From Candidatus Villigracilaceae bacterium (GTDB lineage Bacteria > Chloroflexota > Anaerolineae > Anaerolineales > Villigracilaceae), in contig JAPKMP010000008.1 in assembly GCA_026645935.1 (NCBI GenBank), positions 1 to 64,000 on the forward strand: a stretch of 64,000 nt of DNA, read 5' to 3'. Shown piece by piece: positions 50,972-56,607 of this stretch (the stretch's first letter is position 1; the number at the start of each line of letters is the position of its first letter). The position numbers and the translations under genes are program-made. Under the pieces are notes generated by a model. That model was not told where the DNA came from. It made no database searches and saw only the letters and a list, made by a program, of their open reading frames with translations.

Positions 50972-52657
50972 ATGGAAAACCAATATGACCTGAAATCGGT
51001 CAACCTCCCATACCTTGCGGGTGGAGCGTTGAAATTGATCGCATCCTTGCTTGAAGGACCGCTGCAGGGATTGTTGATTCCCAATCTGTTCGAAACCGCG
51101 GGCATTACCCGCCTGCGCAAACAGCACTTTGACGAACCGCCGACGAATCTTCCAATTCATTACACCGGGGTATTGCAAACCGACCCGGCATCCGTTCCGG
51201 AAGCACTTTGGCCTGAAAAACCATCTCAAGGGAAGGGATTTCAATTTGCATCCATTCACGATTTTGCCAAAGCCTATCGCGATGGAAGGACGACCCCGGA
51301 GGATGTTGCAAAACGTGTGCTGGACTCCATCGAAGCCAGCGATTCGTCCAACCCGCCGATCAGGGCATTCATCGCCATCAACCGCGACGATGTGATGAAA
51401 CAGGCAAGCGAATCGACAAAGCGCTTCAAGGAAGGCAAACCGCTTGGCATCTTCGACGGCGTACCCGTCGCAGTCAAAGATGAAATCGATATGACGCCCT
51501 ACCCCACCACGGTCGGAACCTCATTCCTCGGAAAGACACCGGCAAATGAAGACGCAACTGTTGTGGCGCGATTGCGCGCAGCAGGCGCATTGCTGATCGG
51601 CAAAACCAACATGCACGAGATCGGCATCGGCGTGACAGGCCAAAATCCGCATCACGGCACGCCGCGAAATCCCTACAACATAAATCATTACACAGGCGGA
51701 AGCTCAAGCGGCTCCGCCACGGCTGTTGCCGCCGGTTTCGTTCCAGTCGCCATCGGCGCGGATGGAGGCGGCTCGATCCGCATTCCATCAGCGTTTTGCG
51801 GACTTGTCGGCTTAATGTCCACCTTCGGCAGAGTCAGCGAACACGGGGCATATCCCCTCGATTGGAGCGTTGCCCACGTCGGACCCATTGCCGCTTCCGT
51901 CACCGACGCCGCACTGACCTATGCCCTCATCGCCGGTCCCGATCCGAAAGATGCAATTTCCCTCCACCAGCCGCTGCCGACCCTTGAGGGCTGGGAGAAC
52001 GTCAACCTGAAGGGATTTAGAATCGGTATCTATCGTCCATGGTTCGAGCATGCGGAAGAAAAGGTTGTTGCCACGTGCGATGCGATGGTCAAGAATTTCG
52101 AAGAGATGGGGTGCGAAGTAAGGAAAATCGTAATTCCCGATCTCGAAGCAAATCGTGTGGCACATTTATTCACCATTGTCAGCGAGATGCTGCAGGGTCT
52201 TGGGAAGTATTATGACAAATACCATCGTGAGCACGGAAACGATGTCCGGGTCAACCTTGCGCTGGGCCGGAATTTCAGCGCGGATGATTACGTCAAAGCC
52301 CAGCGCATCCGCACCCGGATGATCGATCACTTCGTGCGTGCCTTCAAAGAAGTGGATGTGATCCTTACTCCCACAACAGCCATCGTCGCGCCTGTGATCA
52401 AGAAGAGCGCCCTGCCAGACGGCGATTCTGATCTTACCGTCCTGACCGAGATCATGCGCTTCGTCACCACCGCGAACATGACGGGTCACCCCGCAATCTC
52501 CTTCCCTGTCGGTTACACTCAAAGCGGATTACCCGTTGGCATGCAAGCCATCGGCCGCGCATGGGAAGAGCATCAACTCCTGCGTTTGGCGCTCGCCGCG
52601 GAACAGGTTGTCGAGCGAAAAGCGCCCCAAGTTCATTATCCGATCCTCGGTAAATAA
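50972..52657 (+). CDS. Amidase signature enzyme (FAAH-like)
   Basis: 561 residues. Ser-cisSer-Lys triad: K169 in GVPVAVKDEID, cis-Ser in TGGSSSGSATA (about 244-245) and nucleophile S268 in GADGGGSIRIPSAF. An N-terminal extension of about 100 residues, longer than in bacterial GatA/amidases, recalls eukaryotic and plant fatty acid amide hydrolases. Hydrolyses an amide; beside an S1P-lyase-like enzyme, an N-acyl long-chain amine is an attractive substrate (inference). Begins 109 bases after the lyase and ends 2 bases before the methyltransferase gene. Confidence 0.88.
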   Translation: MENQYDLKSVNLPYLAGGALKLIASLLEGPLQGLLIPNLFETAGITRLRKQHFDEPPTNLPIHYTGVLQTDPASVPEALWPEKPSQGKGFQFASIHDFAKAYRDGRTTPEDVAKRVLDSIEASDSSNPPIRAFIAINRDDVMKQASESTKRFKEGKPLGIFDGVPVAVKDEIDMTPYPTTVGTSFLGKTPANEDATVVARLRAAGALLIGKTNMHEIGIGVTGQNPHHGTPRNPYNINHYTGGSSSGSATAVAAGFVPVAIGADGGGSIRIPSAFCGLVGLMSTFGRVSEHGAYPLDWSVAHVGPIAASVTDAALTYALIAGPDPKDAISLHQPLPTLEGWENVNLKGFRIGIYRPWFEHAEEKVVATCDAMVKNFEEMGCEVRKIVIPDLEANRVAHLFTIVSEMLQGLGKYYDKYHREHGNDVRVNLALGRNFSADDYVKAQRIRTRMIDHFVRAFKEVDVILTPTTAIVAPVIKKSALPDGDSDLTVLTEIMRFVTTANMTGHPAISFPVGYTQSGLPVGMQAIGRAWEEHQLLRLALAAEQVVERKAPQVHYPILGK

Positions 52658-52659
52658 CC

Positions 52660-53394
52660 ATGACCCTGCAAAAAGATCCCGAAGGTTTCGAAAAAAAGAA
52701 CCTGGACAGCATTGTTGACCTTAATGGAAAACACATTCTGGAGGTCGGATGCGGCGAAGGGCGTTTGACGTGGAAGTACGCCTCCGCCTCGTCCCTGACC
52801 ATCGGGTTTGACACTGACCATTCGGCTTTGCGTATCGCCCGTGCGGATTCCTCCCCTGACTTGCACGACAAAGTCCGATTCGCATGTGCCAGCGCAAAAA
52901 ACATTCCTTTTCGTAAAGAAACTTTCGATATCGCCATCCTCGCCTGGTCGCTCTGATGAATGGAACACGAGAGCATGGTCCATGCTCTGAACGAAATCCA
53001 TCGAATCCTAAAGCCGCGGGGAATCCTGATCGACCTGCGCCCCGTCGAGGATAATTGGTCTGTGGAGGTGGTTACTTCGACCGGAAATCAGGTCGCAGGA
53101 AAGTTAATGGATATGCCCGTCGGCATCGCAGATGATAACGCGGCGTTCCAAGCGATGAATGAGGTTGAAGCGCTCGGTTGGTTCTCGAAAGAAAAGGATG
53201 ACGAATTCGGTTTCTTCTACATCTGGGACACACCCTCCGAGATGAAGTCTTACATCGACGAGGAATGGGAGGATTTCGAAAAGATGGACGATGACCTGTA
53301 CCGAAAAACAAGCTCGTTATGGGCGTCCGCCAATGCCGATGCCCGGGTCCGGGTACGGGTCAAAATGTGGATCGCAGCGTGGAAGAAGCTATAA
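52660..53394 (+). CDS. SAM-dependent methyltransferase with tandem in-frame TGA codons (candidate selenoprotein)
   Basis: Frame continuous from ATG 52660 to TAA 53394 except for TGA-TGA at 52954-52959. The first part (98 residues) has motif I ILEVGCGEGRLT, GFDTDHS and FDIAILAWSL; the second resumes with MEHESMVHALNEIHRILKPRGILIDLRP, exactly the next part of the same class I fold. Only two residues are thus missing, and no frameshift is needed. A perfect hairpin follows at 52970-52988. Read as Sec-Sec the product has 244 residues. Alternatives: a pseudogene, or two coupled ORFs (TGATGAATG) giving separate fragments of 98 and 144 residues. The substrate is unknown. Confidence 0.7.
52970..52988 (+). 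promoter_or_regulatory. Candidate bacterial SECIS hairpin
   Basis: AGAGCATGG and CCATGCTCT form a perfect 9-bp inverted repeat around one T. As RNA this gives a 7-bp stem and a GGUCC loop (or 8 bp with GUC). The loop begins 17 bases after the second TGA and 20 after the first, inside the 16-37 base window known for bacterial SECIS elements, and begins with G as they require. Confidence 0.5.
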
Positions 53395-54639: not shown

Positions 54640-56607
54640 TTATTTATCAAAATGCAAGATCGCGAGGTTGCCCTCAAAATACCGGGCAATCTGTTCGGGA
54701 ATGTTCCCCAGCGTATCCTGAACACGTTTGCGGGAGCCAAATCCCGGCAGGATGATGAAATCGCTGACGACTTCGTGTTCCAATTTCTCAGGTGTGAGCT
54801 GGTCTTTCAATGTCTCCAGCTTATATTCCTGTTCGGGGTTGATCGCGGCGAATAATGCTTCGAAGTTTTGAACATAGCTTTTATCCGCGCGGACGAGCAG
54901 AGGCACGTTCAACGCCTTGGCGATGGCGAGCGTGGCTTCCACCATGCGGCGCAGGGCGATGGGAGGCACCGCTTTGGGTGGAACAATAAAGATCACCTGC
55001 CGCATGCTGTTCAATGGCAGGGATAACTTCCCCGCCACCACAGGAGAATCGGTTCCCCAGATCACTTCGTCCAGGACCGACCCAAGAACGCTCTCCCGAA
55101 AGGTCCGTCGTCCGCGCCAGCCCATGACGATCAGTGAGGCCTTTTCCTCCTGTGCCATGTGAAGGATTCCCTGCGCATGAGTGGCGGCAAGACGCGGGAT
55201 GAATTCGATCTCGGCGTCCGGATCATGCATGGATTGGCTCACTTTGCCCAATAATTCCTTGTGCATCATCAGACTATTGTGTTCGTTCGGTCCCTTGTCC
55301 TGCGCGATGCTGACTGCCAAAACCTTTCCCTTCGACCCCCGCGCGAGCAAACTTGCAAGTGAAACCAATCCTTCGGAGTGTCCCGACTCGGAGACGGGGA
55401 CGAGAATCCGCCCGAAGAGTGAAGTCTGCTCGACGTCGGCGGAGACAGTTTGAATGTCGGGGGCGAACCGCTGGACGATGAGAGGCGAAGTGATCGAAGT
55501 GAGGAGAATCATCAGGATGGCGGCGTTGAAGAGTGTTGGGTCAAAAAGTCCAGTTTCCAAACCGATAACAAGAGTTGGGATCGTGACCGCAGCCTGGGCA
55601 TGGGATAACCCATAGACGGTCCAGAACTCGGATCTTGAGTATTTGTAAATCCAGGCAGTGAGCCAGGCGGCGATGAATTTGGAAACGTATGCTACGACCG
55701 TGACCCCTGCCGCTACAACAATGGTCTGCGGGCTTTCGAGGAAAGTCAGCGGATTGGTGATCAAACCGCTGTATAGTAAAAAGACAGGAATAAAAAAGGA
55801 CTCGCCGATAAAGAGTACATGACCCGCCACCGGGCTGTGGCGCGGCAACATCGAGTTGACCGCCAGGCCCGCAAGGAACGCACCGACCACTTCATGCACA
55901 CCGATGACTTCAGCCACAAAGGCGGCGACAAAAAGCGCGACAATCACGAATTGAAATTCGACGGCGCGACCAGTGAGTCTTTGAAAGACAATCTTGCCAA
56001 AACGCGGCAACCCAAAAATGATGAGCGCCGTAAAGATGGCAAGCAGGATAAACAATTGAGCAAAATAACCGAAGCTCAAACCGCCCTTGTCTGCGCCGAG
56101 GACGACCGCAAGGACAATGAATGCGCCAATGTCTGTAAGGACGGTTGCGCCGGTCGTGACAGCCACCGCCTCATTACGAGTGACGCCAAGCTTTGTAAGG
56201 ATAGGGAATGCGATTAGGGTATGGGATGCAAACGCCGAACCAAGCAGGATCATCCCAAGCCAGTCGAGCCCGAGGATGTAGCCGAGACCCATGCCCATGA
56301 GTTGCGGGAATGTAAATGTGATGAGACCGAATACCAACGCCCGCGCGCGGACCTTCATAAACTGGTTGATATCCACTTCGAGGCCGGCGCTGAACATGAG
56401 ATAGACCAGTCCGATGGTCGAAAGGAATTGGATCCGGTCGTTATCTTCGAGCAGACCGAACCCATGCGGACCGATGAGCATGCCCCCAACGATGATTCCA
56501 ATGATGCCGGGAAGTCTCAGCCGTTCCGAGATCAGCGGCGTGATCAGGATGATCGCCATGACGATCAGGAAAAAGCCTACAGGTTTTGCAAACAGTTCTT
56601 CGAGCAT
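54640..56607 (-). CDS. CPA2-family cation:proton antiporter with C-terminal USP domain
   Basis: 655 residues. Residues 1 to about 390 contain 11-13 membrane helices of the Na+/H+ exchanger domain (VGGMLIGPHGFGLL, MFSAGLEVDINQF, LIAFPILTKLGVTRNEAVAVTTGATVLTDIGAF, GVHEVVGAFLAGL). The soluble part from about 400 has a universal-stress-like fold (ILVPVSESGHSEGLVSLASLLARGS, IVMGWRGRRTFRESVLGSVLDEVIW), probably a nucleotide-binding regulatory domain. Predicted ion antiport for pH or salt homeostasis. Confidence 0.92.
   Translation of the reverse strand: MLEELFAKPVGFFLIVMAIILITPLISERLRLPGIIGIIVGGMLIGPHGFGLLEDNDRIQFLSTIGLVYLMFSAGLEVDINQFMKVRARALVFGLITFTFPQLMGMGLGYILGLDWLGMILLGSAFASHTLIAFPILTKLGVTRNEAVAVTTGATVLTDIGAFIVLAVVLGADKGGLSFGYFAQLFILLAIFTALIIFGLPRFGKIVFQRLTGRAVEFQFVIVALFVAAFVAEVIGVHEVVGAFLAGLAVNSMLPRHSPVAGHVLFIGESFFIPVFLLYSGLITNPLTFLESPQTIVVAAGVTVVAYVSKFIAAWLTAWIYKYSRSEFWTVYGLSHAQAAVTIPTLVIGLETGLFDPTLFNAAILMILLTSITSPLIVQRFAPDIQTVSADVEQTSLFGRILVPVSESGHSEGLVSLASLLARGSKGKVLAVSIAQDKGPNEHNSLMMHKELLGKVSQSMHDPDAEIEFIPRLAATHAQGILHMAQEEKASLIVMGWRGRRTFRESVLGSVLDEVIWGTDSPVVAGKLSLPLNSMRQVIFIVPPKAVPPIALRRMVEATLAIAKALNVPLLVRADKSYVQNFEALFAAINPEQEYKLETLKDQLTPEKLEHEVVSDFIILPGFGSRKRVQDTLGNIPEQIARYFEGNLAILHFDK

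Follow-up and report, generated by a model that had tools for sequence, protein, structure and literature searches.

We describe a gene of Candidatus Villigracilaceae bacterium (Chloroflexota, Anaerolineae) that very probably represents a new family of bacterial selenoproteins, namely class I methyltransferases dependent on S-adenosylmethionine (SAM) in which both of two consecutive UGA codons are read as selenocysteine (Sec). The gene lies in a stretch of 64,000 nucleotides, hereafter the window (assembly GCA_026645935.1, contig JAPKMP010000008.1, positions 1 to 64,000), from a genome of 4.33 Mb in 70 contigs that is 98.7% complete. An earlier reading of the window's letters, hereafter the original prediction, had proposed a methyltransferase frame interrupted solely by TGA-TGA, and positions 52660-53394 of the plus strand indeed form a single frame of 244 codons plus stop, broken only by that pair at 52954-52959. 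The proposal that UGA-UGA would be read as Sec is strongly supported by conservation of the pair, by covariation and synonymous constraint in a hairpin downstream of it, and by the sel genes of the genome. Sec insertion at both codons, SelB binding and enzyme activity are inferred, and the substrate is a guess. The features of the gene are as follows.

52660..53394, plus strand: the whole gene of the putative selenoprotein methyltransferase, coding for 244 residues if UGA stands for Sec (single frame; Pfam match; homologues collinear over both TGA codons)
52738..52767, plus strand: SAM-binding motif I, LEVGCGEGRL, residues 27-36 (E28, G30, G32 and G34 invariant among 55 aligned homologues)
52954..52956, plus strand: first TGA, predicted Sec99 (TGA in 86/89 distinct loci, a Cys codon in 3/89)
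52957..52959, plus strand: second TGA, predicted Sec100 (TGA in 70/89 distinct loci, a Cys codon in 19/89)

With both TGA codons read through, the protein matches Pfam Methyltransf_11 at 66.3 bits (cut-off 21.2).

Conservation of the codon pair

Homologues were collected in three ways. A scan of bacterial and archaeal genomes with short patterns from the window protein, which reaches close relatives only, gave 21 loci. Profile searches gave 43 listed matches in 41 of 396 genomes of the class (E up to 1e-30) and 52 listed matches in 47 of 400 genomes of the phylum (E up to 1e-25); 21 of these 52 matches, in 19 of the 47 genomes, are at places also found in the class search. All 43 class matches and all 52 phylum matches listed are interrupted by a single in-frame TGA or by two, and by no further stop codon. 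The 63 rows from the scan and the class search reduce to 60 distinct ones; after removal of two that are near-identical to others and addition of 31 phylum loci, 89 distinct loci remain. The rows dropped before counting were L033, because of its frameshift, L018 (near-identical to L017), L052 (near-identical to L029) and three exact duplicates.

Writing U for TGA and C for a Cys codon, the pair is UU at 68 of the 89 loci, UC at 18, CU at 2 and CC at 1, with no other state. This is the pattern that marks a bacterial selenoprotein, i.e., a conserved in-frame UGA that otherwise aligns only with Cys. It persists as the proteins diverge: among 55 aligned rows, identity to the window protein falls to 30% and the pair still consists exclusively of Sec or Cys codons. 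The original prediction had Sec-Sec replacing a Cys-Cys pair of homologues. The exchange with Cys holds at both places, but Cys-Cys itself turned out to be the single exception rather than the common form.

Two in-frame stops in one frame, and a homologue (L033) whose match is frameshifted, are what would be expected if TGA-TGA broke a decayed gene or arose from an error of sequencing or assembly. However, the TGA pair is present in 68 of the 89 distinct loci, in many independent assemblies within and beyond the window's class, and sequencing error is therefore very unlikely; on this point, as on the absence of decay, the original prediction held. In a comparison of nine loci with the window, divergence is greatest at codon position 3 downstream of the pair, just as it is upstream. 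We assign a negligible probability to a pseudogene or error.

A further alternative is a split gene, in which TGATGAATG would end a first peptide and the ATG at 52960 would start a second. In the window an ATG does directly follow the TGA pair, and the two halves are open, with lengths of 98 and 144 amino acids. Across the family, however, the next codon is ATG at 27 of the 89 loci and GTG at 8 (35 together), whereas at the other 54 it is ATC, ATT, ATA, GTC, GTT, TTT, ACC or CTC. The break would also fall within the Rossmann domain of the structural model, and a split gene would leave unexplained both the 20 loci where just one of the two positions is a Cys codon and the coupled synonymous changes described below. 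We thus consider a split gene very improbable.

When the four labels are mapped jointly on a tree of the 89 proteins, 16 changes are required, against a mean of 19.7 for shuffled labels; the UC label taken by itself requires 13. UU, the most frequent state, is probably the ancestral one, the root having been placed at the midpoint. The CC row has a UC row as its neighbor (91/95 support, not starred), a placement suggestive of stepwise loss from UU through UC to CC.

Several loci deserve mention in their own right. Five genomes (G148, G377, G473, G578 and G716) hold two gene copies each; in G148 two UC copies (L079 and L056) share a contig at a distance of about 4 kb, and G377 has a UU copy alongside a CU copy (L064 and L082). 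The frameshifted match, L033:5001-5724, lies on a 3.1 Mb contig and reflects either an error or decay. L018, one of the 21 scan loci, is titled Solirubrobacterales, but its gene, on a 3.1 kb contig, is 98.7% identical to that of L017 from Anaerolineales; most likely the contig was mis-binned. Genomes of the window's genus have this gene in a sequence identical to that of records named Anaerolineales or Chloroflexi (L051 = L023, L053 = L037), in agreement with an origin in the Chloroflexota.

A conserved hairpin downstream of the pair

Ten bases separate the second TGA from the inverted repeat AGAGCATGG-T-CCATGCTCT at 52970-52988, which the original prediction described as a perfect 9-bp inverted repeat and likened to a selenocysteine insertion sequence (SECIS). 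The letters are as described, but in RNA a loop of 1 nt is too short to close a 9-bp stem. The fold predicted instead has 8 bp and a 3-nt loop, GUC, or 7 bp and the loop GGUCC if the closing G-C opens. The elements of the hairpin are:

52970..52977, plus strand: 5' arm, 8 bp (conserved core 52971-52976)
52977..52981, plus strand: apical loop GGTCC, whose closing G-C may pair (loop counts among 88 loci below)
52981..52988, plus strand: 3' arm (conserved core 52982-52987)

The 25-nt hairpin alone folds at -10.6 kcal/mol, a value equaled or bettered by 3 of 200 shuffles. From the end of the first UGA to the 5-nt loop there are 20 nt, and from the end of the second 17 nt; to the 3-nt loop the distances are 21 and 18 nt. 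The bacterial SECIS (bSECIS) consensus, as given in a recent review, comprises a stem of 4-16 bp, a loop of 3-9 nt with G in its first two positions, 16-37 nt between UGA and loop, and a minimum free energy of at most -7.5 kcal/mol (PMC13188914). For both UGA codons the window hairpin lies within these limits of loop, stem, spacing and energy.

The hairpin is a property of the family. Among the 88 TGA-bearing loci (the sole CC form, L034, was excluded from the hairpin alignments and the codon backgrounds), 86 have the full 6-bp core at exactly the window's offset and all 88 have G within the first two loop positions. Elsewhere in these genes, 46 of 15,210 codon positions combine both features, which places the proposed SECIS-like element beyond chance. 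The loop is GGTCC at 34 loci, GGTTC at 24, GGTCG at 17, GGTGC at 7, and another sequence at 6.

In a first alignment of 57 loci (55 distinct), 95.5% of cells pair, a value that none of 500 shuffles reaches; one shuffle in 500 reaches two of the five measures. The full alignment has 88 loci, of which 86 are distinct; here 99.6% of the cells of the 6-bp core are paired, and every one of the six pairs has double-sided changes; none of 500 shuffles reaches any measure, and slid controls are at most 56% paired. These shuffle controls ignore the relatedness of the rows. When a seventh pair is included, 96.2% of cells are paired, but this closing pair fails in 21 of the 86 rows, and the working loop is therefore probably the 5-nt GGUNN.

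The clearest sign of constraint on the hairpin is a coupling of synonymous codons, for which a reason at the protein level is hard to find. Where a Ser AGY codon is followed four codons on by Ala, the Ala codon is GCT in 32 of 33 rows (the 34th AGY row has Thr ACT). Where the first codon is instead Gly GGY, the Ala codon is GCC in 52 of 53 rows. Elsewhere in 57 of these genes, GCT accounts for 107 of 1,367 Ala codons. Similarly, His in the hairpin region of the first 57 loci, where present, is always CAT (52 of 52), compared with 161 of 314 elsewhere.

The hairpin is kept in the UC and CU loci; of the two CU loci, L082 has it in the same form and L151 in a related form. L034, the CC form, has no such stem: three of the six pairs form, the loop reads GATAG and the energy is -2.2 kcal/mol (z 0.49). 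Its genome still has a tRNA-Sec (67 bits). Because the UC and CU forms retain the hairpin and the CC form has lost it, one hairpin probably serves either codon. The UC loci have it for the first UGA alone and the CU loci for the second alone; each of the two spacings would therefore be used singly in nature.

These forms also bear on the possibility that one UGA is Sec while the other is suppressed by a near-cognate tRNA as another amino acid, or mostly terminates. The excess of UC over CU, 18 to 2, together with the many changes of the UC label on the tree, may mean that the first position matters more. However, the second position is exclusively TGA (70 loci) or a Cys codon (19 loci), which fits an exchange of Sec with Cys and not a Trp-type suppression, and the hairpins of L082 and L151 indicate that a UGA at the second place is decoded also where the first place holds a Cys codon. 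Decoding of a single UGA as Sec is thus improbable.

A covariance-model search (R1) of the source genome for a second gene with this element recovered the gene itself at E 2.9e-14 and nothing else below E 0.2.

Selenocysteine machinery of the genome

The genes that the original prediction presupposes, i.e., those for tRNA-Sec (SelC), SelA, SelB and SelD, were all found, each above its curated cut-off: tRNA-Sec at 66.7 bits (cut-off 47), for which ARAGORN gives the anticodon TCA, selA at 537 bits (cut-off 268), selB at 358 bits (cut-off 242) and selD at 362 bits (cut-off 125). The selD frame (L047, G000:C30:11005-11934) has an in-frame TGA of its own, in the context CAG-TGA-AS, which we take to be the known Sec form of SelD. 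The hairpin 3' of this TGA has a GGUCC apex, as in the methyltransferase gene, and SelD is accordingly listed here as a second candidate selenoprotein of the same organism. The sel genes and the TGA-bearing selD together make it very probable that this organism synthesizes selenoproteins.

An in-frame TGA within an otherwise intact gene could also arise if the organism had reassigned UGA to an ordinary amino acid. Yet TGA terminates 15 of the 42 long non-overlapping open reading frames of the window. In the family, moreover, TGA exchanges only with Cys codons and accompanies a covarying hairpin, and the sel genes are present. Reassignment can hardly be the explanation.

Protein fold and possible chemistry

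The protein has the hallmarks of a class I SAM-dependent methyltransferase, namely a GxGxG-type motif I, an acidic residue after strand 2, and the fold itself. A structural model with Cys in place of Sec has a mean predicted local distance difference test score (pLDDT) of 94.5 and a predicted TM-score (pTM) of 0.90. The 50 VIA-align matches listed for it have Z of 16.0-18.3 and are mostly described as methyltransferases. In the model, residues 99-100 lie in a short helical turn that follows the strand formed by residues 89-95. By sequence, the pair aligns with Cys-His of TleD (5gm1) and with Ile-His of MitM (8zc8).

In class I methyltransferases, the loop that follows strand 4 points toward the methyl acceptor. 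Based on the model, Sec-Sec after strand 4 should meet the substrate, where the pair could provide soft ligands for a metal or metalloid, a nucleophile or base, or a vicinal diselenide switch. We tentatively favor a soft substrate, at clearly less than an even chance. Identity as an arsenite methyltransferase was rejected, the corresponding fusion models scoring far below their cut-offs; the chemistry itself may still apply.

The fold might also have been kept for another function, i.e., a redox or metal-handling protein with a vicinal diselenide. No neighboring gene fixes a role in methylation, and a redox role is ascribed to many selenoproteins (PMC13188914). On the other hand, E28, G30, G32 and G34 of motif I are invariant and D51 is nearly so across the 55 homologues, and the Pfam methyltransferase matches are far above the cut-off. 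We regard loss of the methyltransferase function as unlikely, though it deserves to be kept in mind.

Proposed mechanism

In the simplest model, SelB carrying Sec-tRNA would bind the apical GGU loop of the single hairpin, 10 bases downstream of the second UGA, and two successive rounds of delivery would follow. The first round would insert Sec at the first UGA, which lies 20 nt before the 5-nt loop, and the second round, from the same hairpin, would insert Sec at the second UGA, 17 nt before that loop. In the product, Sec-Sec would follow strand 4 of the Rossmann fold by a few residues and lie on the side of the bound SAM where the methyl acceptor sits. There the two residues would probably act toward the substrate as a vicinal pair of soft ligands or as a nucleophile, or else cycle as a vicinal diselenide. 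Candidate substrates would be a soft metal or metalloid (As, Hg, Te or Se) or a thiol or selenol.

More broadly, we envisage a family scattered through the Chloroflexota in which an active-site Sec-Sec is ancestral and prevailing, and in which one short SECIS would decode both UGA codons in successive elongation steps. Its vicinal selenols would have a soft metal(loid) or chalcogen as their substrate, or would form a reversible diselenide, the first selenol being rarely given up and the second more often. We place this fuller picture at about even, and not higher, given the scattered occurrence of the family (in 47 of 400 genomes of the phylum) and the frequent loss of the second Sec.

Genomic neighborhood

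50972..52657, plus strand: amidase, whose stop lies 2 bases before the methyltransferase ATG (Pfam Amidase, 360.8 bits)

The amidase is possibly in the same transcript as the methyltransferase, and a shared pathway is at most conceivable. A survey of the genes within three positions of 71 loci, many with short flanks, gave 371 neighbors. The largest cluster, a DUF1801 protein at -1 or -2, is found at 15 of the 71 loci. The cluster to which this amidase belongs is near the gene at 8 loci, and three clusters, one of them peptidase C69, occur at 7 loci each. We considered gene context as a guide to the substrate and set it aside; no neighbor is family-wide, so no substrate follows. On the minus strand at 54640-56607, adjoining the hydrolase-like gene that follows the putative selenoprotein gene, is a Na+/H+ exchanger with a universal stress protein domain.

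Points that weigh against the assignment

A number of observations speak against the reading of this family as Sec-Sec methyltransferases or reduce the force of the evidence for it. We know of no measurement of how a single bacterial SECIS decodes two neighboring UGA codons in nature. The second position has turned to Cys frequently, and more Cys forms may exist at matches weaker than those counted. The named homologues are metagenome-assembled genomes or assemblies of uncultured bacteria, and the clusters formed by the 371 neighbors include no family-wide partner gene. As for the hairpin, its 6-bp core is broken in 2 of the 88 loci. Among the folded 50-nt stretches of the TGA-bearing methyltransferase loci, z ranges from -3.75 (L152) to -1.14 (L050), and in some the energy is unremarkable (-1.25 in L085, -1.18 in L156, and L050 itself). 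The energy of the selD hairpin is also ordinary (z -0.71; 45 of 200 shuffles as low).

The occurrence of tRNA-Sec is weak evidence, because it is common throughout the class (above the cut-off in 334 of 396 genomes), and its presence was for that reason set aside as proof. In the class, 41 genomes carry the family; the tRNA-Sec match is strong in 39 of them (E up to 6.1e-12) and weak in G307, while the genome search found no match in G186, a UU form whose assembly is 64% complete. In 29 further genomes, i.e., 28 family-positive ones from the phylum search and that of L034, tRNA-Sec is over the cut-off in 27, but G543, G571, G622 and G673 have matches of 45-48 bits only. The weak matches of these four and of G307 (E 1.7e-8 to 7e-8) could be other tRNAs with a long variable arm. 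For all six genomes, either an incomplete assembly or a divergent tRNA-Sec may account for the result.

Comparison with known systems

The closest precedent for the residue pair is PDI_e, an algal protein disulfide isomerase with a GUGUU motif, which its authors call the first selenoprotein with consecutive Sec-Sec (PMC7539508). Like the window protein, PDI_e has two adjacent Sec residues from consecutive UGA codons. It differs in being eukaryotic, in belonging to another protein family and in having three Sec residues in all, whereas the window protein is a bacterial methyltransferase with one local in-frame hairpin. That hairpin fits the bSECIS consensus as the review states it (PMC13188914), yet would serve two adjacent UGA codons. 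The adjacent UU motif is absent from Table 1 of that review (May 2026), which by the review's own count covers 119 prokaryotic families or subfamilies. Among the papers listed in searches for tandem, consecutive or adjacent UGA or Sec there was no bacterial case; a 2024 paper concerns two tandem UGA codons in an overlapping frame of a viral gene (PMC11510084).

Among known methyltransferases, MduS (NF045649) likewise combines a methyltransferase domain with two Sec residues, but has a CxxU motif (PMC13188914, Table 1) and a model 338 positions long, which the window protein matches at 39.8 bits (cut-off 380). The Sec-containing arsenite methyltransferases (NF008823; fusions NF041536 and NF041537) share Sec in a SAM-dependent methyltransferase and differ in their UxxG motifs, as listed in Table 1 of the same review (PMC13188914). 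The window protein scores 26.6 bits against NF041536 (cut-off 575) and 27.1 bits against NF041537 (cut-off 510); this comparison covers the fusion models, NF008823 being outside the 25 models listed. CpaM (NF043040), a corrinoid protein-associated methyltransferase, has the same domain and is the best NCBIfam match of the window protein, at 59.1 bits against a cut-off of 180; one of the 55 members matches it at 1e-20, and the other 54 match no NCBIfam model at that threshold. Three members were compared with NCBIfam, and all 25 models listed for each score below their cut-offs. The best solved relative by sequence is the O-methyltransferase TleD (PDB 5gm1), in which SLCHMD aligns with SLUUME; TleD has no Sec, and Cys-His where the window protein would have Sec-Sec.

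Taken together, these comparisons point to a new selenoprotein family, in which the adjacent Sec-Sec as such has its algal precedent in PDI_e. Within the literature searched, that protein is the only one for which adjacent Sec-Sec is in print as a conserved feature. Here Sec-Sec would prevail in a bacterial family, with a local hairpin of known spacing to both codons. The family also reverses the usual pattern, in which Cys homologues are far more numerous than Sec forms, as the review puts it (PMC13188914): CC is found at only 1 of the 89 loci. Such a gene would be easily missed, as gene callers that end at TGA would split it in two. The family makes it possible to test whether one bacterial SECIS and SelB decode two successive UGA codons, and with what efficiency, and its UC, CU and CC homologues provide ready-made controls.
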